Assembly: GCA_905620465.1 (NCBI GenBank)
Contig: CAJQTO010000049.1
Location: 1-38,819 of the forward strand
Source: an uncultured Candidatus Pelagibacter sp.
GTDB taxonomy: Bacteria; Pseudomonadota; Alphaproteobacteria; Pelagibacterales; Pelagibacteraceae
Direction of reading: 5' to 3'
DNA length: 38,819 bases
Both the position numbers and the translations under genes were made by a program. The notes under the pieces are model-generated. The model saw only the letters and a program-made list of their open reading frames with translations, was not told where the DNA came from and did not search any database. Every line of letters starts with the position of its first letter. Within the stretch, counting starts at the first letter, position 1. Shown one piece after another: positions 30 to 34,701 of the stretch.

Positions 30-212
30 TTGGAGTTTGGTGTTAATAAGGGTTGTTCGACATCTTTATTCTTAAGATTCTGCCAACAAACAAAGAGTAA
101 ACTAATTTCAGTAGATACCATTGATTGTTCAAAATTATTTAATGATAAAAATTGGAAATTTATAAAATGTAGAGATGATGAATTTATTAAAATTAATAAG
201 ATTGTAAAATGA
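30..212 (+). pseudogene. Fragment resembling the SAM-binding N-terminal part of a class I methyltransferase
   Basis: Translation KILEFGVNKGCSTSLFL...KLISVDTIDCS...NWKFIKCRDDEF resembles motif I/II of a Rossmann methyltransferase; in-frame TAA at 21-23 just upstream and TGA overlapping the moaA start; only about 60 aa. Confidence 0.45.
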
Positions 213-1201
213 ATAAACTTAAAGACACTTTTGGAAGAAAATTTCCCTACATAAGATTGTCTATTACTGATATTTGTAATTATAAGTGTACTTACTGTTT
301 GCCCCAAGGTTATAAAAAAACACCAGGAGATATGAGGAGTTTTATGACCGCTGAAGAAATATCAAGATTAACTAAAGCTTTAGCGGAACTAGGTGTTTGT
401 AAAATAAGGTTAACTGGTGGAGAGCCCACAGTTAGGAAGGATTTTTTTGATATCCTTAAAGATATGAAACAAAATTCAAATATTCCAAAAATAACAATGA
501 CTACTAATGGTTATCGTCTAGATAAGATTGCTAAACAATTACATGAAGTTGGTTTAGATGGAATTAATATTAGTATCGATAGCTTAAATAGAGAAACTTT
601 TAAAAAACTGACTGGGCATGATAGGCTTCCTGAAATTTTAGAAGGAATTAAAATTTTACAAAAACTAAATTTCAAAAATATAAAAGTTAACGCTGTTTTA
701 CTTAGAGGTATTAATGATTCTCACAAAGAATTTGAAAAATTTGGAAATTTTATAAAAGATAATAAAATTGATTTTAGATTTATAGAATTAATGCAAACAG
801 GAGATAATTTAGATTATTTTAAGAAAAACCATGTTTCTTCAAAGATATTTAAAGATTATTTAGAAAAAAATAATTGGGTATATCAAACATACGGCAAGGA
901 TGCGGGACCAGCATTAAATTTTATTCACCCTGAGTACAAAGGTAAATTTGGATTAATTGCTCCCTACTCTAAAGATTTTTGTAAAACATGTAATAGTTTA
1001 AGAGTTACTTCTAGAGGTGATTTAAGGTTATGCTTATTTGGTAACACTGGAATTAGTATCCGACATTTATTACAAAATAATGATCAAAAAGAAGAACTTA
1101 TAGATCTTATAACTAAACAACTACACCTTAAAAAAGAGTCACATTATTTAGAACTTGGAGACACGGGCATTACTAAAAATTTATCAACAACTGGTGGTTA
1201 A
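209..1201 (+). CDS. moaA: GTP 3',8-cyclase MoaA (radical SAM)
   Basis: CNYKCTYCLP radical SAM CxxxCxxC motif, LTGGEPTVRKD, C-terminal second Fe-S cysteines (FCKTCNSLRVTSRGDLRLCLF), C-terminal GG. Confidence 0.95.
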   Translation: MNKLKDTFGRKFPYIRLSITDICNYKCTYCLPQGYKKTPGDMRSFMTAEEISRLTKALAELGVCKIRLTGGEPTVRKDFFDILKDMKQNSNIPKITMTTNGYRLDKIAKQLHEVGLDGINISIDSLNRETFKKLTGHDRLPEILEGIKILQKLNFKNIKVNAVLLRGINDSHKEFEKFGNFIKDNKIDFRFIELMQTGDNLDYFKKNHVSSKIFKDYLEKNNWVYQTYGKDAGPALNFIHPEYKGKFGLIAPYSKDFCKTCNSLRVTSRGDLRLCLFGNTGISIRHLLQNNDQKEELIDLITKQLHLKKESHYLELGDTGITKNLSTTGG

Positions 1202-1747
1202 ATGAGTAATCTAAGATTTATTAATCAAAAAGAATTGAAAGATTGGGCTAAAGAAATTTTTAAAAAAAATTCTTTTAATATGGTGGATGTTTCTTCAAAA
1301 AAAGAAACATTTAGAAGAGCATTGGCATCAGGCAAAATTTATGTTGGTAAAGAAGTTTTTGATTTAATTAAAAATAAAGAAATGCCTAAAGGAGATCCAA
1401 TTACTTTAGCTGAAGTATCTGCAGTATTAGGTGTTAAAAAAACAAGTGAATTGATTCCTTTATGTCATCCTCTTCCAATAGATCACACAGCAACTAAAAT
1501 TATTATGCAAGAAGAAGATAATTCCTTAGAGGTGTTTTGTGTTGTATCTGCTGTTGCAAAAACTGGTGTGGAGATGGAAGCAATTATGGGAGTTAACACA
1601 GCATTAATTACAATTTATGATCTAAGCAAAATTGTAAATCCACATCTTAGAATTGATAATGTCAGATTATTAATTAAAGAAGGTGGAAAAAGTGGATTAT
1701 GGACTAATCCAGATGGACTTCCTAATTTCTTAGAAAATATTTTTTAA
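1202..1747 (+). CDS. moaC: Cyclic pyranopterin monophosphate synthase MoaC
   Basis: MVDVSSKKETFRRALASG, LIPLCHPLPI, KTGVEMEAIMGVNTALITIYD motifs. Confidence 0.93.
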   Translation: MSNLRFINQKELKDWAKEIFKKNSFNMVDVSSKKETFRRALASGKIYVGKEVFDLIKNKEMPKGDPITLAEVSAVLGVKKTSELIPLCHPLPIDHTATKIIMQEEDNSLEVFCVVSAVAKTGVEMEAIMGVNTALITIYDLSKIVNPHLRIDNVRLLIKEGGKSGLWTNPDGLPNFLENIF

Positions 1748-1750
1748 ATT

Positions 1751-2020
1751 ATGAAAATAAAACTTGAACTCTTCGGTACAAGTAGAGAATTTAGCAATAA
1801 AGATCATCTTGAATTTAATCTTAAAGAAAAAATCTCAATTAAAGATTTTAGAAAAGAAATAATTAATTATGTGGATCAAAATTTTAAAGGTAATGAGAAC
1901 TTTAAAAAAATTATAGAAACATCAGCATTTTGTTCTGAAAACAATAATATTGTTAATGATAATTATAAAATTATTAAAGATCAAAAAATTAGTATTATTC
2001 CACCTATTGGAGGTGGTTAA
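1751..2020 (+). CDS. moaD: Molybdopterin synthase sulfur carrier subunit MoaD
   Basis: Small ubiquitin-like protein ending IPPIGGG; between moaC and moaE. Confidence 0.88.
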   Translation: MKIKLELFGTSREFSNKDHLEFNLKEKISIKDFRKEIINYVDQNFKGNENFKKIIETSAFCSENNNIVNDNYKIIKDQKISIIPPIGGG

Positions 2021-2466
2021 TGCTCCATACTAAAATTATTGACATTAAAAAAGAAAAAATAAAAATCTCAAAAGCAGAAGCTTTTATTACTTCATCAAAA
2101 TTTGGTGCTTCAATTTTTTTTACAGGTACTGTCAGAAATATTAATGATGACAAAAAAGTTACAGGTATGACTTATGATAGCCATGATGAGTTGGTTATAA
2201 AAAGTTTTGAAGAAATATATAAAGAGACAGATAAGAAACTAAAAATAGAAGATAAAGCTGTATTTATTGAACACGTTAAGGGATATGTTGGTTTAGCTGA
2301 AATAAGCATTATTATCGCTGTTGCTTGCAAACATAGAGATCAAGCCTATTTTTTATCCAGATATATAATAGAAGAAATTAAAAAGAGATCTCCTATTTGG
2401 AAAAAAGAACATTATGAAAATAATGAAAGTAAGTGGCTAAAAGGAAACCCTATTCAAACAAATTAA
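2020..2466 (+). CDS. moaE: Molybdopterin synthase catalytic subunit MoaE
   Basis: FFTGTVRN, EHVKGYVGLAEISIIIAVACKHRDQAYFLSRYIIEEIKKRSPIWKKEHY motifs; 1-nt overlap with moaD. Confidence 0.9.
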   Translation: MLHTKIIDIKKEKIKISKAEAFITSSKFGASIFFTGTVRNINDDKKVTGMTYDSHDELVIKSFEEIYKETDKKLKIEDKAVFIEHVKGYVGLAEISIIIAVACKHRDQAYFLSRYIIEEIKKRSPIWKKEHYENNESKWLKGNPIQTN

Positions 2467-3031
2467 AATCTTTTTTTAAATCAAAATCTTTAAAAATTTT
2501 ATTTGTTGAAACTTTTATAAAATTTGTATTTTTTGATAGTCTTTTAACCATATATTTTGCTCCAATATCGCCTTTTATTTTTTTAAATTTACTCAAAACT
2601 TTAATGTTAAAACCAATTGGATTCCCTATTTTATCTTTATATTTTAAAGCATGAACTAAATTATCTTTTTTTAATATAGAATTATAGATTTTATTGATAT
2701 GTATTGAACGAACAAAAGGCATGTCTGACAGGACAACCATAAATCCTTTATCTTTTTTATTTATTTTTTTTAAGCCTGTTTTTATTGATGAGGATATTCC
2801 TTTTCTATAATTTTTATTAATTATCAATTTAATTTTTTTACTTTTTAAAATAATCTTTTTAATATGGCTGTGTTCAAAACCTAGAACGACTATTATTTTT
2901 TTAACTTTGCTTTTTACTAAAAACTTTAAAATATAGTTAATCAAAGGTTTATTTTTAAAATTCTTAATTAGTTTATTTTCAAATGGAATTCTTTTGGACT
3001 CCCCTGCTGCGAGTAAAATTGCAGATATCAT
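2450..3031 (-). CDS. Molybdenum cofactor nucleotidyltransferase, MocA/MobA-like
   Basis: N-terminal ILLAAGESKRI nucleotidyltransferase signature, VVLSDMPFV; MoCo/xdh context; 3' end overlaps moaE by 17 nt. Confidence 0.8.
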   Translation of the reverse strand: MISAILLAAGESKRIPFENKLIKNFKNKPLINYILKFLVKSKVKKIIVVLGFEHSHIKKIILKSKKIKLIINKNYRKGISSSIKTGLKKINKKDKGFMVVLSDMPFVRSIHINKIYNSILKKDNLVHALKYKDKIGNPIGFNIKVLSKFKKIKGDIGAKYMVKRLSKNTNFIKVSTNKIFKDFDLKKDFNLFE

Positions 3032-3066
3032 CTATTTTTAAATAATTGAATATGCACAAAGCTTTT

Positions 3067-3576
3067 TCATTTTTTGCACTCACCAATTGATCCTAAGCTG
3101 CACTTTTTACCATCAATCCAAGTTGCATTATTTAGATTTGCTCCTTCGAAACTTGCGTTTGTAATATTAGATCCAGTTAAATCAGATTCAAAAAGATTAC
3201 TATCTTTAAAATTAGCCTCTATTAAAGAAGCTCCTTTAAAATTAGCACGAGTTAAATTTGCACTAGTAAAATTTGTTTTTTCAAAATTACCTCCCTCTAA
3301 ATTTGTTTCATACAAATTTGCTCTAAAAAAAGAAGACTCAGCAAAATTACCATTACTTAAGTTTGAGTTCATCATTACACTTTTATCAAAATTTACTTTG
3401 ATAAAGCTAATAAAAGATAGATTAGAATTTGGTATATAGGCGCGACTTAAATCTTGTTCTTCAGAAAATTGACAATTTGAATAATCCACTCCATCAACTG
3501 GTGCATCATCACACCCTGCATTAACACCTACGCTAAATAACAAACTAAGAATTAATATACTTAAAATTTTTTTCAT
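3067..3576 (-). CDS. Secreted pentapeptide-repeat protein
   Basis: Signal peptide MKKILSILILSLLFSVGVNAG followed by A(N/D)LxxANFxxA pentapeptide repeats. Confidence 0.85.
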   Translation of the reverse strand: MKKILSILILSLLFSVGVNAGCDDAPVDGVDYSNCQFSEEQDLSRAYIPNSNLSFISFIKVNFDKSVMMNSNLSNGNFAESSFFRANLYETNLEGGNFEKTNFTSANLTRANFKGASLIEANFKDSNLFESDLTGSNITNASFEGANLNNATWIDGKKCSLGSIGECKK

Positions 3577-4253
3577 TTTTTATATGTTTCAGCTACCAAT
3601 TGTGCAATTATTGAGAGTGCTATTTCTGGTGCTGATTTTCCGCCTAATTTTATGCCAATTGGCCCATTAATCAAATTAATTTCATCGTTACTAAATCCAG
3701 CTTCTGTTAACCTTTGACATCTATTTGCGTGAGTTTTTTTGCTTCCTAATGCACCAATATAATAAAATTTTTTCTTTAGCGCATGTTGTAATGCTGGGTC
3801 ATCAATTTTAGGGTCATGAGTTAATGCAATTAAAGCTGTATTTGAATTTGTTTTAATTTCTTTAAAAGCTTCATCTGGCCACTTATTCAATATTTTCATA
3901 CCAGGAAATCTTTGTTCTGTTGCAAAATATCCTCTTGGATCAATAACGGCTATTTCAAAATTTAAACTTTTAGCATAATTGATAAGATATTGAGCAATAT
4001 GCACAGCTCCTACAATTATAACTTTAATTGGTCTAATATAAGTTTCTACAAATATATTTGTATCTTCAATAACACCATTTTTTTTATTTTTGTAAAAATA
4101 ATTTATTTGATCTTTATATTTTTCAAAATTTTTACTAATAGGTTTGTTTAATTCAAAAATTTCACTACTACTTGTTTCTAAATTTGTAACTATTGCAAAC
4201 TCAGATTTATTTTTTTTTTTGTTAATTATTTCTTGTAAAACTTTCAATTGCAT
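3573..4253 (-). CDS. XdhC/CoxF-type protein, C-terminal (NAD-binding-like) domain
   Basis: IIVGAVHIAQYLINYAKSLNFEIAVIDPRGYFATEQRFP, ALITHDPKIDDPAL, YIGALGSKKTHANR; typical XdhC C-terminal domain. Confidence 0.85.
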   Translation of the reverse strand: MQLKVLQEIINKKKNKSEFAIVTNLETSSSEIFELNKPISKNFEKYKDQINYFYKNKKNGVIEDTNIFVETYIRPIKVIIVGAVHIAQYLINYAKSLNFEIAVIDPRGYFATEQRFPGMKILNKWPDEAFKEIKTNSNTALIALTHDPKIDDPALQHALKKKFYYIGALGSKKTHANRCQRLTEAGFSNDEINLINGPIGIKLGGKSAPEIALSIIAQLVAETYKK

Positions 4254-4582
4254 TAATTTACCTGCTCTAAGTAAACTGCAATTTCACCGCCACAAGCAAG
4301 ACCAACTTCCCAAGCACTTTCGTTAGACACTTTAAATTCTATTTTTTTAAAAGGTTTATTGTCTTTAATAATTCCAATACATTCCCTGACAACAGCAGAC
4401 TCTACACATCCACCAGAAACTGATCCTGAAAAATCTCCATTTTCATTTACAATCATTCTGCTACCAGTAGGTCTAGGAGAAGATCCCCAGGTTTGAATTA
4501 CAGTTGCAAGTACTACTTTTTGATTTGCTTTTACCCAGTCATAAGCTTCTTCTAAAATTTTTTCATCAAATGAATTTTTCAT
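4253..4582 (-). CDS. XdhC/CoxI N-terminal domain protein
   Basis: VLATVIQTWGSSPRPTGSRMIVNENGDFSGSVSGGCVE motif; TAATG stop/start overlap with the downstream gene. Confidence 0.85.
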   Translation of the reverse strand: MKNSFDEKILEEAYDWVKANQKVVLATVIQTWGSSPRPTGSRMIVNENGDFSGSVSGGCVESAVVRECIGIIKDNKPFKKIEFKVSNESAWEVGLACGGEIAVYLEQVN

Positions 4583-4603
4583 TTGGAAAAATATAGATCT
4601 TAA

Positions 4604-5389
4604 CTAGCAAGCTTCAACTGCTTTCTTAGCATATGTCACTACCAAACTAGCTCTAAAATCTCCAGAAGCATGAATATCTGAGTTCATTTCTGAACTATCC
4701 AGTTTTATTCCATCTATGGCAGAGACTGAAAAACTATTTGATAAAGCTTTTGATAAATCTTTATCGACATAAACCACTGGTTTCGCTCCAGTAATTGCTA
4801 CATTAACTTCTTTTTTGTATTTTGCTAAATAAACTCCTACTATTGCATACCTAGATGCTGGATTTGGATGTTTTTGGTAGTTTGATTTATCTGGTATATT
4901 AAATACTACTGCCTCTATTATTTCACCTTTTTTTAGTGCGGTCTCAAACATCCCTTTAAAAAATTTTGCTGCTTCTATTTTTCTATTGTTCGTATGGATA
5001 ATTGCATTAAGTGCCATGCATGCAGATGGATAACATGCTGAAGGATCATTATTTGCTATAGATCCACCTACTGTTCCTCTATTTCTAACTTGAGCATCAC
5101 CTATTCCACCAGCTAACTTTGCTAAAGATGGTATTGCTTTTTTAACATCTTTGGAATTTGCTACCTCAGCATGTTTGGTTGTTGCTCCAATTGTAACTGT
5201 TTTTCCACTTACCTTAATTCCAGATAATTTTTTAATATGTTTTATATCAATTATATCTTTGTAAGTTGCTAATCCTAGTTTCATTGATGGTATACTTGTC
5301 ATTCCACCTGCTAAAAAGGCTGAACTAGTTGAGGCTAACTTTGAAGCTTCCTTAATATCTTTTGGTGTATGATAATTAAATGTTTTCAT
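4604..5389 (-). CDS. coxM: CO-dehydrogenase/xanthine-dehydrogenase-like FAD-binding medium subunit
   Basis: AFLAGGMTSIPSMKLGLATYKDIIDI, GGSIANNDPSACYPSACMAL FAD-binding motifs. Confidence 0.88.
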   Translation of the reverse strand: MKTFNYHTPKDIKEASKLASTSSAFLAGGMTSIPSMKLGLATYKDIIDIKHIKKLSGIKVSGKTVTIGATTKHAEVANSKDVKKAIPSLAKLAGGIGDAQVRNRGTVGGSIANNDPSACYPSACMALNAIIHTNNRKIEAAKFFKGMFETALKKGEIIEAVVFNIPDKSNYQKHPNPASRYAIVGVYLAKYKKEVNVAITGAKPVVYVDKDLSKALSNSFSVSAIDGIKLDSSEMNSDIHASGDFRASLVVTYAKKAVEAC

Positions 5390-5399
5390 ATATATCTCC

Positions 5400-7781
5400 T
5401 TAAGCTGCTTTAGAGTTGGGTTTTTTTAATGCTTTACAAGCTTTCCAAACTTTTTCTGCTGTTGCAGGCATTGTTATTTCCTGTCCACCTAATGCATCTA
5501 TAACAGCATTCATTATTGTTGGAGGTGAAGCAATTGCTCCTGCTTCTCCACAACCTTTAACTCCCAGTGGGTTTGATGTTGCATGAGTACAAGTAAAGCC
5601 CAAATTAAACTCAGGAAAATTATCTGCTCTTGGCATTGTATAATCCATGTAAGAGGCTGTAATTAACTGTCCTGTTTCATCATATTCGGTGTTTTCATGT
5701 AACGCTTGACCAATACCTTGAGCGATACCACCATGAACTTGTCCTTCAACAACTAAGGGGTTTACAATTCTACCAAAATCATCAACTGCTGTATATTTTT
5801 CAACTTTAACTTCTCCTGTTTCAGGATTAATTTCTACCTCTGCAATATGAGATCCGGCTGGAAAAGAAAAATTTGATGGGTCAAAAAAAGATGTTTCAAT
5901 TAAACCTGGCTCTTCACCTTCAGGTAATGGAGATTTAAATTCTGAATCTCTACTACCAGGTAAATAGCAAGCAAAAGCAATCTCACCTATTGTTTTCTTT
6001 TTATTTGATTTCGTTACAACAAATTCACCATCTTTAAAGTTTATTTCATCTTCGCTTACTTCGAGCATTTTTGCAGCAACTCTTTTTCCTTTAGCCACAA
6101 TTTTTCTACATGCATTTACAATAGCTATTCCTCCAACTGCTAGTGATCTAGAGCCATAAGTTCCCATTCCAAATGTTCCTTTATCTGTATCTCCATGAAT
6201 TACATCAACAACATCAAGTCCTACACCAAGTTCATCTGCTGCAATTTGAGCAAATGTGGTGTCATGACCTTGTCCATGACTGTGAGCTCCTGTATAAACT
6301 GAAACTTGTCCAGTTGGATTAAATCTAACTTCTGAAGATTCCCATAATCCCACTCCACACCCCAAAGACATAACAACGGCCGATGGTGCAATTCCACAAG
6401 CTTCAAAATAAGATGAAACTCCAATTCCTCTTAATTTTCCATTAGCTTCTGATTTTTTTCTTCTTACCTCAAACCCTTTATAATCAGACATTTGTTTAGC
6501 TTTTTCTAAACTAGCAACATAATCACCAGAATCTACTGTGTGAACTAATGTTTGTTTAAATGGAAATTCAGTTGGAAAATTTCTCATTCTTATCTCTGTT
6601 CTATCAATACCAAGTTCCATCGCAGCTTTTTCAACTAACCTTTCAATTGTGTAAGTCGCTTCGGGTCTGCCAGCTCCTCTATAAGCATCTACTGGTGCTG
6701 TATTTGTATAAACTGCTTTAACATTTGTATATGCAGCTGGGATTGTATAAACACCGGTTGCACAAGGGCCAAATAAATAAGTTGGTGTAACAGTTCCAAA
6801 CACTCTTGCATAAGCTCCAAGATTTGCAATCGTTTCATTTTTAAACGCTAAAAATTTACCATCGTTTGTTACAGCAAGTTCTGCATGGGTAACGTGGTCT
6901 CTACCATGGGTGTCTGTTAAAAAGGACTCTGTTCTTTCAGCAACCCACTTTATTGGTCTTTCAATTTTTTTTGAAGCCCAACTACAAACTATTTCCTCAT
7001 TATAAACATTAATTTTTGATCCAAAACCACCTCCAACATCTGGTGCTACTACTCTCAATTTATTTTCAGGTGCTACTCCACCAAATGCTGACATTATCAA
7101 TCTTGAAAGGTGTGGGTTTTGACTTGTGGTATATAAAGTTATTTCTTCAGATGCTGTATTATAATCCACAACACAAGCTCTTGGCTCCATTGCATTTGGT
7201 ACACACCTATTGTTAATTAAATCTACTTTTATAATTTTATCAGCTTTTGCAAAAGCTTCTTCAACTGCTTTTCTGTCACCTAATAACCAGTCGTAACAAA
7301 GATTTTTATCTATTCCATCATGAATAGTTTCTCCTTTCATTGCTTCTGCTGTATTGATCACACCTTTTAAAACTTTATAATCAACTTTAACTAAATCTAC
7401 AGCAGCTTTAGCTTCGTCCAGAGACTCTGCAAAAACAACAGCTATAGGCTCTCCTACAAAGTTTGCACTATCTTTAGCTAGAGGGGGGTTTGCTGGCACT
7501 TTCATCTCAGAGCCATCTTCACTTCTAATTGCCCATCCAGCAATTAAACCACCAATTTTATCAGCAGCAATCTCTTCTCCAGTTAAAATTTCCACAACAC
7601 CTGAAGCCTTTAAGGCTTTAGATATATCTATTTTTTTAATTTTTGCTCTTGCATGAGGGGATCTTACAAATGCAGCGTAGGTTTGGTTGGCAATATTAAT
7701 ATCGGCAGTGTACCTTCCTTTGCCTGTTAATAGTCTTTTGTCTTCTTTTCTTTCTACTCTTGAACCTACTAAACTAGCCAT
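5400..7781 (-). CDS. coxL: Xanthine-oxidase-family molybdopterin large subunit, form II CoxL-like
   Basis: DVGGGFGSK, AYRGAGRPEATY (form II signature), TGAHSHGQGHDT, GVKGCGEAGAIASPPTIMNA; substrate unknown. Confidence 0.92.
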   Translation of the reverse strand: MASLVGSRVERKEDKRLLTGKGRYTADINIANQTYAAFVRSPHARAKIKKIDISKALKASGVVEILTGEEIAADKIGGLIAGWAIRSEDGSEMKVPANPPLAKDSANFVGEPIAVVFAESLDEAKAAVDLVKVDYKVLKGVINTAEAMKGETIHDGIDKNLCYDWLLGDRKAVEEAFAKADKIIKVDLINNRCVPNAMEPRACVVDYNTASEEITLYTTSQNPHLSRLIMSAFGGVAPENKLRVVAPDVGGGFGSKINVYNEEIVCSWASKKIERPIKWVAERTESFLTDTHGRDHVTHAELAVTNDGKFLAFKNETIANLGAYARVFGTVTPTYLFGPCATGVYTIPAAYTNVKAVYTNTAPVDAYRGAGRPEATYTIERLVEKAAMELGIDRTEIRMRNFPTEFPFKQTLVHTVDSGDYVASLEKAKQMSDYKGFEVRRKKSEANGKLRGIGVSSYFEACGIAPSAVVMSLGCGVGLWESSEVRFNPTGQVSVYTGAHSHGQGHDTTFAQIAADELGVGLDVVDVIHGDTDKGTFGMGTYGSRSLAVGGIAIVNACRKIVAKGKRVAAKMLEVSEDEINFKDGEFVVTKSNKKKTIGEIAFACYLPGSRDSEFKSPLPEGEEPGLIETSFFDPSNFSFPAGSHIAEVEINPETGEVKVEKYTAVDDFGRIVNPLVVEGQVHGGIAQGIGQALHENTEYDETGQLITASYMDYTMPRADNFPEFNLGFTCTHATSNPLGVKGCGEAGAIASPPTIMNAVIDALGGQEITMPATAEKVWKACKALKKPNSKAA

Positions 7782-7797
7782 ATTAATCCTCCTTTAA

Positions 7798-8262
7798 TTA
7801 CATTTTTGATGCTGCTTCTTTAACAGCAGCTACAATATTTTGATAACCAGTACATCTGCAAATATTTCCCTCTAGCCACTCCCTAATCTCTGTATCATTT
7901 GGATTTTTTTTATTTTGTAAAAGGTCAATTGCACTCATAACCATTCCAGGTGTGCAAAAACCACATTGTAGTCCATGCATTTTTTTAAATGCTTCTTGCA
8001 TCGGATGCATTTTTCCATCCTTAACTAATCCCTCTATCGTTGTTACTTTTGAACCATTAATATCTGCTGCTAAGGTTGAACAACTTTTTATTGATTTACC
8101 ATCAACATGAACTACGCAAGCTCCACATTGACTAGTATCACACCCAACATGAGTGCCTGTTAAATTTAAATTATCTCTTAAAAAAACTGATAAGATTGTA
8201 TGATCGGGTACGTCTTTACTGACTTTTTTACCGTTAACTTCTATAGTTACTTTTGTCATCAA
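7798..8262 (-). CDS. coxS: [2Fe-2S] small subunit of the same molybdenum hydroxylase
   Basis: [20 protein letters not shown] and [12 protein letters not shown]...[13 protein letters not shown], two 2Fe-2S motifs. Confidence 0.95.
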
Positions 8263-8348
8263 GCTTTCTCCTTCTCGATTAATTAGTAATTATAAATTAC
8301 ACCACAACGATAAGAGTTACTCAAGTTGAAAAAAAATAAACTTTCTAC

Positions 8349-8927
8349 TTATGCTAGAAAATAATATCCAGAAATTACCAAACAAATTGCAACTATTGAA
8401 TAAATTAATGTTTTATTTAAAGGTTTAAAAATATTTTTTTTTATTGAAGTAAGTTTTTCAATATTTTCATGTGATTTAGTTGTTGTTAGTTTAGGTGTAA
8501 TTAATTCTGAAAATTTTCCAAAAAATATATCTGCCATTTTTTTCGCAGTCATATCAATTAATCGTGAACCCACTTGGGCAATTTTACCACCTACATTTGC
8601 CTCAACAGTATAAGCAAGTTTTGTTCCACCCTCATGATCTTCAAGGCTTACCGTAGCTTCTCCTGACGCAAATCCAACTGGAGAATTTCCTGATCCCGTT
8701 ATTTTATAACTATTTGGTGGATTGAGATCTTTTAATTCTATGTCACCTGTAAAGGTTACATTAAATGGACCAATCTTATTTGTTGCTGTCGCAGTGAACT
8801 CTGTATCAGAATTTTTTTTTAATTCTTCGCATCCAGGTATAGCTTGTTTCAATACTTCTGGATCATTTAAAGCATCCCAAACTTTTTGTTTTTTTAAATT
8901 AATTTGATATAATCCAGTAAGTTTCAT
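8349..8927 (-). CDS. coxG: CoxG-family SRPBCC protein with C-terminal membrane anchor
   Basis: VWDALNDPEVLKQAIPGCEELKK; C-terminal LIYSIVAICLVISGYYFL hydrophobic helix. Confidence 0.85.
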   Translation of the reverse strand: MKLTGLYQINLKKQKVWDALNDPEVLKQAIPGCEELKKNSDTEFTATATNKIGPFNVTFTGDIELKDLNPPNSYKITGSGNSPVGFASGEATVSLEDHEGGTKLAYTVEANVGGKIAQVGSRLIDMTAKKMADIFFGKFSELITPKLTTTKSHENIEKLTSIKKNIFKPLNKTLIYSIVAICLVISGYYFLA

Positions 8928-31368: not shown

Positions 31369-32847
31369 TTAGACTAAAGTTCTCTTAATTGCTTGTTGCC
31401 AACCTTTCAACAGATCAATTCTTTGTTTTTTTTTCATTTTAGGAGTGAATTTTCTATTAATTCTCCATTTTTTTGAAATTGAATGAAGTGAATTGTATAA
31501 TCCAATTTGATAACCAGCGATTAATGCAGCACCCAAAGCTGTTGTCTCAGGAATTGTTGGTCTTAATACTTTTATATCCAATATGTCAGAAAGAAATTGT
31601 GCAAACCAATTATTTGAAACCATACCTCCATCTATCTTTACTATTTTAGGTTTTAATCCATCGTTATTCATGGCTCTAAACAAATCATAACTTTGATATG
31701 CTACAGATTCTATAACAGCCCTTACAATATTTTTCCAATCGGTATTTCTTGTTATGCCACTGATTGTACCTCTTGCATTAGCATTCCAGTAGGGAGCGCC
31801 CAAGCCCGTGAATGCAGGAACAATATAAATTCCATCATTGCTTGTTTTAGATTTTACAATTTTTTCTGTCTCATAAGCATTATTAATTAATTTAATTTTA
31901 TCCCTTAACCATTGGACTCCTGCACCTGCAATAAAGATTGAACCTTCTAAAGCATAGGTATTTTTATTTTTTATTCTATAACAGATTGTGGTTAATAATT
32001 TATTTTTTGATAAAATCTTTTTATTTCCAGTGTTCATCATTATAAAAGCACCCGTACCATATGTGCATTTAACAGATCCTTTATCAAAACAAGCTTGTCC
32101 CACAGCTGCAGCTTGTTGATCACCTAGTACTGCATTAATTGGAATTTCCTCTCCAACAATTTTTTTAGATGTTTTTCCAAAATAGTCAGCCGAATTTTTT
32201 ACTTCTGGTAAAATTGATTTTGGAATATTTAGTTTTCTTAAGATTTCATTATCCCATTTATTTGTGTTTATATTAAACATTAAAGTTCTACTTGCATTTG
32301 TTGCGTCTGTTAAATGATTTTTTTTATTTGTTAATCTCCAAATCAAAAAAGTATCAATAGTTCCAAACATCAAACGTTTGTCTTTATGAAGTTTTTTTGT
32401 TGCAGAAACATTATCAAATATCCATTTTACTTTTGTTGCTGAGAAGTAAGGATCAATAAAAAGTCCTGTTTTTTTTCTAAATGAATTTTCTAGTTTTCTT
32501 TTTTTTAAATTTTTACAAATATCTTGAGTTCTTCTGTCTTGCCAAACTATTGCATTATAAACTGGCTTACCTGTTTTTTTATCCCAAAGAATAGTAGTTT
32601 CTCTTTGATTTGTAATTCCTATTGAAATAATCTTTGCTTTTAAAGATTTACTTTTTTTAATTGAATCTCTAATTGTTTTTAAAGTTACTCTCCAAATTTC
32701 CTCCGGATTATGCTCAACCCATCCAGAATTCGGAAAAATTTGTTTAAACTCGGACTGAGAAGAAAAAATTTTTTTTCCTCTTAAGTTAAATAAAATTGAT
32801 CTAGATGATGTGGTTCCCTGATCAATAGAAAGAATTAGTTTTTGCAC
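31369..32847 (-). CDS. glpK: Glycerol kinase
   Basis: LSIDQGTTSSRSILF, GITNQRETTILWDKKTGKPVYNAIVWQDRRT, GLGAPYWNANARG, IDGGMVSNNWFAQFL. Confidence 0.95.
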   Translation of the reverse strand: MQKLILSIDQGTTSSRSILFNLRGKKIFSSQSEFKQIFPNSGWVEHNPEEIWRVTLKTIRDSIKKSKSLKAKIISIGITNQRETTILWDKKTGKPVYNAIVWQDRRTQDICKNLKKRKLENSFRKKTGLFIDPYFSATKVKWIFDNVSATKKLHKDKRLMFGTIDTFLIWRLTNKKNHLTDATNASRTLMFNINTNKWDNEILRKLNIPKSILPEVKNSADYFGKTSKKIVGEEIPINAVLGDQQAAAVGQACFDKGSVKCTYGTGAFIMMNTGNKKILSKNKLLTTICYRIKNKNTYALEGSIFIAGAGVQWLRDKIKLINNAYETEKIVKSKTSNDGIYIVPAFTGLGAPYWNANARGTISGITRNTDWKNIVRAVIESVAYQSYDLFRAMNNDGLKPKIVKIDGGMVSNNWFAQFLSDILDIKVLRPTIPETTALGAALIAGYQIGLYNSLHSISKKWRINRKFTPKMKKKQRIDLLKGWQQAIKRTLV

Positions 32848-32965
32848 AAATTTAAGCTAAATAATGTTTAACAGTATACATTCTAAATTAAGAATTATTT
32901 TATTTTAATTTTTAGTATTTTGTGAGTAAAGTACAGTTATAAATTTATTTAGGAGAGATTATTTT

Positions 32966-34306
32966 ATGACTAAAGTTGCAATTATTGGAGCTGGACCTTG
33001 TGGCCTGTCTGCTTTGAGATCTTTTGAGCAAGCTGAAAAAAAAGGAGAAAAAATACCTGAAATAGTTTGTTTTGATAAACAAGAAGATTGGGGTGGATTA
33101 TGGAATTACAGCTGGAGAACAGGATCTGATCAATATGGTGACCCTGTACCTAACAGCATGTACAGATACCTTTGGTCAAACGGTCCCAAAGAATGTCTAG
33201 AATTTGCCGATTATTCATTTGATGAACATTTTGGAAAACCAATTCCATCTTTTCCACCTAGAGAAGTTTTATATGATTATATTTTAGGTAGAGTTAAAAA
33301 GGGAAATTTAAAGGATAAAATTAAATTTAATACCTCTATAACTAACGTTTCTTATAATGGTAAAATTTTTGAAGTTACTTATCGTGATAAAAAAAATGAT
33401 AAAATTTCAAAAGATGTATTCGATTATGTGATTGTATCAACAGGTCATTTCTCAGTTCCATTCATTCCTGAATATGCTGGAATGAAAGCTTTTCCAGGAA
33501 GAATAATGCACTCTCATGATTTTAGAGATGCCGAAGAATTCAGAGATAAAAATGTTGTTGTTTTAGGAAGTAGTTATTCTGCTGAAGATGTAGCTCTTCA
33601 GTGTCATAAATATGGAGCGAAAAGTGTAACAATTGGTTACAGACATAATCCAATGGGATTTAAATGGCCAGATGGAATGAAAGAAGTTTTTCACTTAGAT
33701 AGACTTGAAGGTAGCAAGGCAATATTTAAAGACGGTCATGTACAAGAAACGGATGCTGTAATTTTATGCACAGGTTATCTTCATCATTTTCCTTTTTTAT
33801 CTGAAGAACTTAAATTAAAAACAGGAAACAGATTATATCCTCCAATGTTATATAAAGGTGTGGTTTGGCAAAATAATCACAAATTGATGTACTTAGGTAT
33901 GCAAGATCAATTTCATACTTTTAATATGTTTGATTGTCAGGCTTGGTTTGCAAGAGATGTTATAATGGGGAAAATTAAGGTTCCAGACAATTCAGAAATA
34001 GAAAAAGATATAAATAAATGGGTATCCTTGGAAGAAAAATTAGAAAATGCAGATCAAATGATTGATTTTCAAACTGAATACACAAAAGAACTTCATACTT
34101 TATCAGATTACCCAAAAATTGATTTTGAATTAATTAGAAAAACTTTTAAAGAATGGGAACACCATAAAGTAGAAAATATTATGACATATAGAAATAAGTC
34201 CTTTGCCTCACCTGTAACTGGATCGGTTGGTCCAAAACATCATACAGAATGGGAAATTGCAATGGACGATTCTTTAAAAACTTTTTTAGATCAACCTAAA
34301 AATTAG
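32966..34306 (+). CDS. tmm: Flavin-containing monooxygenase, trimethylamine monooxygenase type
   Basis: VAIIGAGPCGLSALRSFEQAEKKGEKIPEIVCFDKQEDWGGLWNYSWRTGSDQYGDPVPNSMYRYLW; FSVPFIPEYAGMKAFPGRIMHSHDFRD; GGAGAG SD upstream; resembles marine Tmm. Confidence 0.9.
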   Translation: MTKVAIIGAGPCGLSALRSFEQAEKKGEKIPEIVCFDKQEDWGGLWNYSWRTGSDQYGDPVPNSMYRYLWSNGPKECLEFADYSFDEHFGKPIPSFPPREVLYDYILGRVKKGNLKDKIKFNTSITNVSYNGKIFEVTYRDKKNDKISKDVFDYVIVSTGHFSVPFIPEYAGMKAFPGRIMHSHDFRDAEEFRDKNVVVLGSSYSAEDVALQCHKYGAKSVTIGYRHNPMGFKWPDGMKEVFHLDRLEGSKAIFKDGHVQETDAVILCTGYLHHFPFLSEELKLKTGNRLYPPMLYKGVVWQNNHKLMYLGMQDQFHTFNMFDCQAWFARDVIMGKIKVPDNSEIEKDINKWVSLEEKLENADQMIDFQTEYTKELHTLSDYPKIDFELIRKTFKEWEHHKVENIMTYRNKSFASPVTGSVGPKHHTEWEIAMDDSLKTFLDQPKN

Positions 34307-34326
34307 TATTTTTTCTTTAATTTTGC

Positions 34327-34701
34327 ATGATATTTATAAAAAATCTTAAATCTGTCTCTGATCAAGAATGGTCAACAACTGAGAAATACCCAGGGGTCAG
34401 GTGGAAGTTCTTAATTGACGCAGATTTTACTGGAAGTTCAGGTCTTTCACTTGGTTTTGCTGAAATTGCCCCAGGAGGTGACTTAATACTTCATTATCAT
34501 TCGCCAGCAGAAATATATGTAGTTACTGGTGGTGTAGGAACATTAAATAAATCTGGTAAGCTTGAAGAAGTTAAAAAAGGTGATGTAGTTTATATAGCTG
34601 GAAATGCAAAGCATGCTTTAAAAAACACTGGAAAAGAAACTTTAGAATTTTATTGGATTTTTCCAACAGATCGTTTTTCTGAAGTAAAATATCTTTACTA
34701 A
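34327..34701 (+). CDS. dddK: DddK-like cupin DMSP lyase
   Basis: EWSTTEKYPGVRWKFLIDADFTGSSGLSLGFAEIAPGGDLILHYHSPAEIYVVTGG...KKGDVVYIAGNAKHALKNTGKETLEFYWIFPTDRFSEV closely resembles SAR11 DddK as I remember it; H56, H58, E62, Y64, H96, Y122 present. Confidence 0.85.
   Translation: MIFIKNLKSVSDQEWSTTEKYPGVRWKFLIDADFTGSSGLSLGFAEIAPGGDLILHYHSPAEIYVVTGGVGTLNKSGKLEEVKKGDVVYIAGNAKHALKNTGKETLEFYWIFPTDRFSEVKYLY

Follow-up and report, generated by a model that had tools for sequence, protein, structure and literature searches.

Two enzymes of SAR11 bacteria, together with one transporter cluster, are the closest described systems to the locus analysed here. According to PMC8498191, the monooxygenase Tmm7211 of Pelagibacter sp. 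HTCC7211 (PDB 7d4k, 7d4m and 7d4n) was itself shown to oxidise TMA, DMA and DMS, of which TMA is the best substrate; it converts DMS to DMSO in vitro with a kcat of 4.5 per min and a KM of 250 uM, and its kcat/KM is nine-fold lower for DMS (18) than for TMA (161). DddK of HTCC1062 (PDB 6a53, 5tfz and 6a55) is a single-cupin lyase that cleaves DMSP to DMS and acrylate (PMC10686828, PMC12582016) with an activity of 12.2 U/mg (PMC12582016). It is among the lyases that are 2-83 fold more efficient with DMSOP, the cleavage of which yields DMSO directly (PMC10686828). Both DMSP and DMSOP induce dddK in HTCC1062, DMSOP more strongly; the strain also grows better on DMSOP than on DMSP and can take DMSO as a sulfur source (PMC10686828). 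HTCC1062 carries both genes; it reportedly produces both DMS and MeSH from DMSP and also oxidises DMS (PMC8520302).

In the SAR11 TMAO gene cluster tmoXWV, tmoW and tmoV are oriented convergently to tmm (PMC8918994). Moreover, the co-occurrence of tmm and dddK in genomes is already published: PMC8498191 and PMC8520302 place the same two functions in one cell and propose channelling of DMS to DMSO, and in their accessible parts they give genome-level counts and do not report adjacency or operon structure. Within the open-access PMC literature that we searched, we found no description of the tmm-dddK arrangement and none of a dddK linkage for Tmm7211.

Results

A lyase gene between tmm and the TMAO-importer genes

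The window, by which we mean the whole stretch of 38,819 nucleotides analysed, is one contig of an uncultured Candidatus Pelagibacter genome (678,791 bases, 49 contigs, 50% complete) whose nearest relatives with a name are single-cell and metagenome assemblies assigned to Candidatus Pelagibacter. Its tmoW and tmoV, orthologs of those in the tmoXWV cluster, are likewise convergent to tmm, but tmm and tmoW are here separated by an inserted gene for a DMSP lyase. The original prediction had placed tmm and dddK 20 nt apart on the plus strand, and this layout holds:

31369..32847, minus strand, glpK, glycerol kinase, divergent upstream neighbour (TIGR01311 above cut-off)
32848..32965, plus strand, tmm leader, intergenic, divergent from glpK
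32966..34306, plus strand, tmm, trimethylamine monooxygenase (FMO), 446 aa
34307..34326, plus strand, tmm-dddK spacer, 20 nt
34327..34701, plus strand, dddK, cupin DMSP (and DMSOP) lyase predicted from homology, 124 aa
34698..36851, minus strand, tmoW, fused TMAO ABC-transporter permease (BPD_transp_1), 717 aa
36855..37886, minus strand, tmoV, ABC-transporter ATPase of the proV/choline type (TIGR01186 above cut-off)

The convergent tmoW shares the last 4 nt of dddK and is 87% identical to the gene adjoining tmm in genome G046 (1,308,759 bp), which we take to be Candidatus Pelagibacter ubique HTCC1062. Because tmoW is convergent and the upstream gene divergent, the tmm leader is the sole intergenic promoter room open to tmm-dddK apart from the 20-nt gap. 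A Shine-Dalgarno-like AGGAGAG at 32951-32957 lies 8 nt 5' of the tmm ATG. A promoter scan of the tmm-dddK region gave promoter-like sites at a frequency not above chance and none between the two genes; the sigma-70-like match in the leader (32868-32895) is weak, at or below the chance rate. The spacer has no recognisable Shine-Dalgarno, promoter or terminator, and with no visible ribosome-binding site in this gap dddK must be translated either by coupling or from some other kind of start. As a candidate operon, the pair is characterised by a common strand, the 20-nt spacing, the lack of a terminator-like site between the genes, and conservation in relatives. Searches of the window at Rfam gathering thresholds returned no RNA elements. 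Elsewhere in the window (209-8927), inspection of the ORFs by eye indicates molybdenum-cofactor-synthesis-like genes beside a CO-dehydrogenase-like hydroxylase cluster. In the window genome, which is about 50% complete, a search for DmdA (GCV_T domain, about 370 aa) returned only long fused dehydrogenase-type frames.

Identity of the two enzymes

Both enzyme assignments of the original prediction are borne out. The FMO scores 743.4 bits against the NCBIfam equivalog NF058570 'trimethylamine monooxygenase' (cut-off 675), and its best solved-structure match is Tmm7211 (7d4k, E 3e-266). Of the 20 FAD/NADP-binding positions of Tmm7211 listed in PMC8498191, which include D314, W70, N72 and R409, 18 are identical in the window Tmm and the other two are changed conservatively (E37D, V125I). 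By score the window Tmm, with these residues kept, is an ortholog of Tmm7211 and would be expected to oxidise DMS to DMSO too. In an alignment of Tmm from dddK-linked and unlinked loci no residue position separates the two sets, so that no residue marking a DMS-specialised Tmm in linked loci was found. A second, divergent SAR11 Tmm type, 59% identical to the window Tmm, is encoded at L063:7594-7977 and in loci L143 and L144.

The cupin matches HTCC1062 DddK (6a53) at E 6.9e-71 over residues 1-123, and all three HTCC1062 structures match it at E about 1e-70; this solved-structure match rules out another small cupin. The metal ligands H56, H58, E62 and H96 and the catalytic Y64 and Y122, which had been picked out from the sequence beforehand and are numbered accordingly, are all present and are common to the HTCC1062 enzyme. 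Over 57 dddK loci they are invariant except in L099, where a natural E62K occupies the metal-ligand position. Among linked dddK the median pairwise dN/dS is 0.11 (pairs with pS below 0.5), and both dddK and tmm are under purifying selection.

The window DddK is 87% identical to the G046 copy. In G046, however, dddK follows fabI at a map distance of about 843 kb from tmm, whereas the window pair is 20 nt apart. In clade II (L087, L098), DddK is 69-71% identical to that of the window, and dddK lies not behind tmm but 11 nt behind TRAP-transporter genes (dctP, dctM and a small permease), an arrangement that is possibly a substrate-import unit; in L098 an aldehyde dehydrogenase precedes the transporter genes. 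DddK-like cupins with 36-44% identity are found in other Alphaproteobacteria (L148-L152), and within the short loci examined there is no tmm near them.

Distribution and conservation of the linkage

Among 397 genomes sampled from the order, 12 have dddK and 184 have tmm; in the genus, dddK was found in 27 of 399 genomes, and a genome-contig scan contributed 53 further loci with organism names. Removal of identical genes left 57 distinct full dddK, on which all linkage counts are based. In 27 of them dddK lies directly behind tmm on the same strand, and the adjacency, for which a survey of SAR11 genomes had been proposed as a check, is therefore not unique to this genome. The gap is 18-20 nt in 26 of the 27 loci and 13 nt in one, with varying spacer sequence. 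A 28th case is L070, where the dddK contig starts with the last tmm codons and the tmm of the genome runs into the end of another contig. The linked loci span many species, and among them is that of the cultured isolate Candidatus Pelagibacter ubique HTCC9565 (L106), with tmm at 6640-7980 and dddK from 8001; a single-genome or assembly artefact is ruled out by the 27 loci and by the presence of an isolate in the set. With about 1,350 genes, we estimate that a given gene falls by chance directly behind a named gene on the same strand roughly once in 2,700 independent placements, and the weight of the adjacency lies in its persistence, not in many independent origins.

Upstream of linked tmm, where the contig shows it, there is a divergent gpsA of two kinds (22 loci) or glpK (the window and L079), so that the position held by glpK in the window belongs to gpsA in most other tmm-dddK loci. 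These differences indicate that neighbours turn over while dddK stays. Downstream, the unit is bounded by a convergent tmoW in 24 linked loci; of the other three, L056 ends about 860 nt past dddK, and L057 and L058 carry other sequence. Together with the lack of other promoter room, this makes a shared two-gene transcript likely. In 19 tmm loci from dddK-free genomes, there is either nothing in the slot behind tmm or genes on the opposite strand, and no co-directional gene directly follows tmm.

Two further features of the slot were observed. A small hydrophobic ORF (about 47-57 aa) on the tmoW strand is conserved in the tmm-tmoW slot of L110, L116, L120 and L122, and the same kind of ORF lies between dddK and tmoW in L059 and L064. 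In RIS_SAG_65, a 3-hydroxyisobutyrate-dehydrogenase-family gene and an aldehyde dehydrogenase (L058:8431-10824) follow tmm-dddK co-directionally; it is possible that these dehydrogenases act on 3-hydroxypropionate from acrylate and that the locus is an extended DMSP operon.

Gain, loss and scars of the linkage

The dddK tree has two well-supported sides, one of 20 loci, none of them linked, and one of 37 (27 linked, 9 not, 1 undecided). Because only three changes of linkage are needed on this tree, the adjacency may trace to one or very few insertions. In the Tmm tree, linked loci occur in each of the two deep groups, and its supported branches require at least four changes; dddK has thus undergone gain, loss or relocation several times. 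Among linked loci, dddK and tmm distances are correlated (r 0.77, 0 of 2000 permutations). Where a full tmoW is present (19 linked loci), the distances of dddK and tmoW (r 0.64) and of tmm and tmoW (r 0.76) are correlated too; thus the whole neighbourhood tends to travel together.

Scars are present at both addresses of dddK, the one behind tmm and the one behind fabI that is used in HTCC1062 and relatives. The tmm-tmoW gap of L109, L138 and L139 contains a frameshifted remnant of the dddK 3' end, which for L109 and L138, the two loci computed, aligns to dddK with a score of about 50 versus a shuffle maximum of 29 (0 of 200). No dddK was found in the L109 genome, and the genomes of L138 and L139 have theirs at fabI. 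RIS_SAG_65 has an intact tmm-linked dddK (L058:8001-8381) and, behind fabI, a second dddK that carries an internal deletion (L107:7950-8150). The tmm slot of G046 contains no dddK scar. It seems that a single functional dddK is maintained, whichever of the two addresses it occupies; linkage to tmm has been lost repeatedly and is dispensable.

In L063 (AG-319-F05), a C-terminal Tmm part lies about 25 nt upstream of dddK; this fragment is about 50% like the window Tmm and 89% like a Tmm in AG-319-F18. Immediately upstream of this Tmm fragment the contig is probably an amplification chimera, with a purK fragment fused head-on. L063 is therefore a single suggestive case, and it was entered as 'not linked' in the linkage tallies.

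Discussion

We favour a model, to which we assign a probability of roughly 0.6, whereby tmm and dddK form a SAR11-specific two-gene operon in which dddK is on the tmm promoter, Tmm oxidises a minor share of the DMS, and shared expression is the likely benefit. In this model, dddK would have become established, in one part of the genus Pelagibacter, downstream of tmm and ahead of the TMAO-importer genes that converge on it. The tmm promoter would drive dddK, and the DMSP/DMSOP lyase would be made whenever the methylamine oxidase is made. Tmm would mainly convert TMA to TMAO and, being promiscuous, would convert a minor share of the DddK-made DMS to DMSO while most DMS would escape. The benefit would probably lie in joint expression of the enzymes for phytoplankton osmolytes that occur together (TMA/TMAO and DMSP/DMSOP); partial conversion of DMS to DMSO would be a by-product. 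Co-expression as an operon is likely and partial DMS capture plausible.

One or very few origins may leave neutral retention of gene order as an alternative to an operon benefit. dddK would then have landed once in a shuffling slot behind tmm and been inherited or recombined along, the arrangement bringing no benefit. The three changes that suffice on the dddK tree are consistent with this, as is the variability of the slot next to tmm, which may be empty or contain gpsA, glpK, transporter genes or a small ORF; the reciprocal decay also shows that either address works. However, the spacing and co-orientation outlast a median pS near 0.48 and the turnover of other neighbours, and in RIS_SAG_65 it is the fabI-side dddK that is truncated while the tmm-side copy is intact. 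We consider neutral hitch-hiking unlikely.

A second alternative is that DddK is mainly a DMSOP lyase making DMSO directly, and that it sits behind tmm as part of a common programme for oxidised osmolytes rather than for DMS oxidation. The catalytic preference for DMSOP among the lyases that include DddK, and the advantage of DMSOP over DMSP as dddK inducer and growth support in HTCC1062, argue for this idea (PMC10686828). Yet this role was demonstrated for the unlinked HTCC1062 enzyme only, and knowledge of the marine DMSOP supply is scant; we hold this alternative to be similarly improbable.

The original prediction had joined the two genes into a possible DMSP to DMS to DMSO unit. Its identities, operon-like layout, conservation and two reactions stand, each reaction having been shown in close relatives (PMC8498191, PMC10686828, PMC12582016); what is weakened is tight coupling. 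From 12.2 U/mg and 13.8 kDa, DddK turns over about 170 times per min (PMC12582016), about 37 times the rate of 4.5 per min given for Tmm7211 on DMS in PMC8498191, a ratio to be taken as indicative because the values come from different laboratories and conditions. Given this gap, most DMS should escape unless Tmm greatly outnumbers DddK. In addition, HTCC1062 is reported to carry out both reactions with its genes apart (PMC8520302), so linkage is not needed for them, and as DddK acting on DMSOP gives DMSO directly (PMC10686828), DMSO does not require Tmm.

A stronger form, in which selection favoured the operon for the capture by Tmm of DddK-derived DMS, whereby sulfur stays in the cell as DMSO, is possible but disfavoured, and we rate it as more doubtful than the preceding alternatives. 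It accords with the reactions of the relatives, with the usability of DMSO as a sulfur source by HTCC1062 (PMC10686828), and with the presence of tmm elsewhere in most of the unlinked clade-I dddK genomes checked. In L063, dddK lies behind a different, divergent Tmm, and the pairing seems to outlive the replacement of tmm, but this contig is the probably chimeric one. Besides the rate gap, taken from separate studies, it is opposed by the volatility of DMS, which diffuses away, by the reported release of DMS from HTCC1062 despite its having both genes (PMC8520302), by the lack of linkage-specific Tmm residues, and by the repeated loss of linkage. Least probable of all is that tmm-dddK lineages are DMS-retaining strains, in which one transcript for both the DMS-forming and the DMS-oxidising enzyme would lower the DMS and raise the DMSO emitted per DMSP relative to fabI-address strains, such that the address of dddK would predict DMS yield.

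The two-gene operon model bears on the biology of SAR11 in several ways. SAR11 bacteria are among the most abundant cell groups of the surface ocean, and the DMS that arises from DMSP has a part in both the sulfur cycle and climate. Surveys of gene abundance in which tmm and dddK are tallied one by one miss their linkage. The probable operon is present in the cultured strain HTCC9565 but not in HTCC1062, the model strain, making these a natural strain pair with which to ask whether linkage alters DMS release. Should coupling be weak, which is what the published rates point to, expression of the DMSP lyase would still be tied to the methylamine programme by this arrangement.
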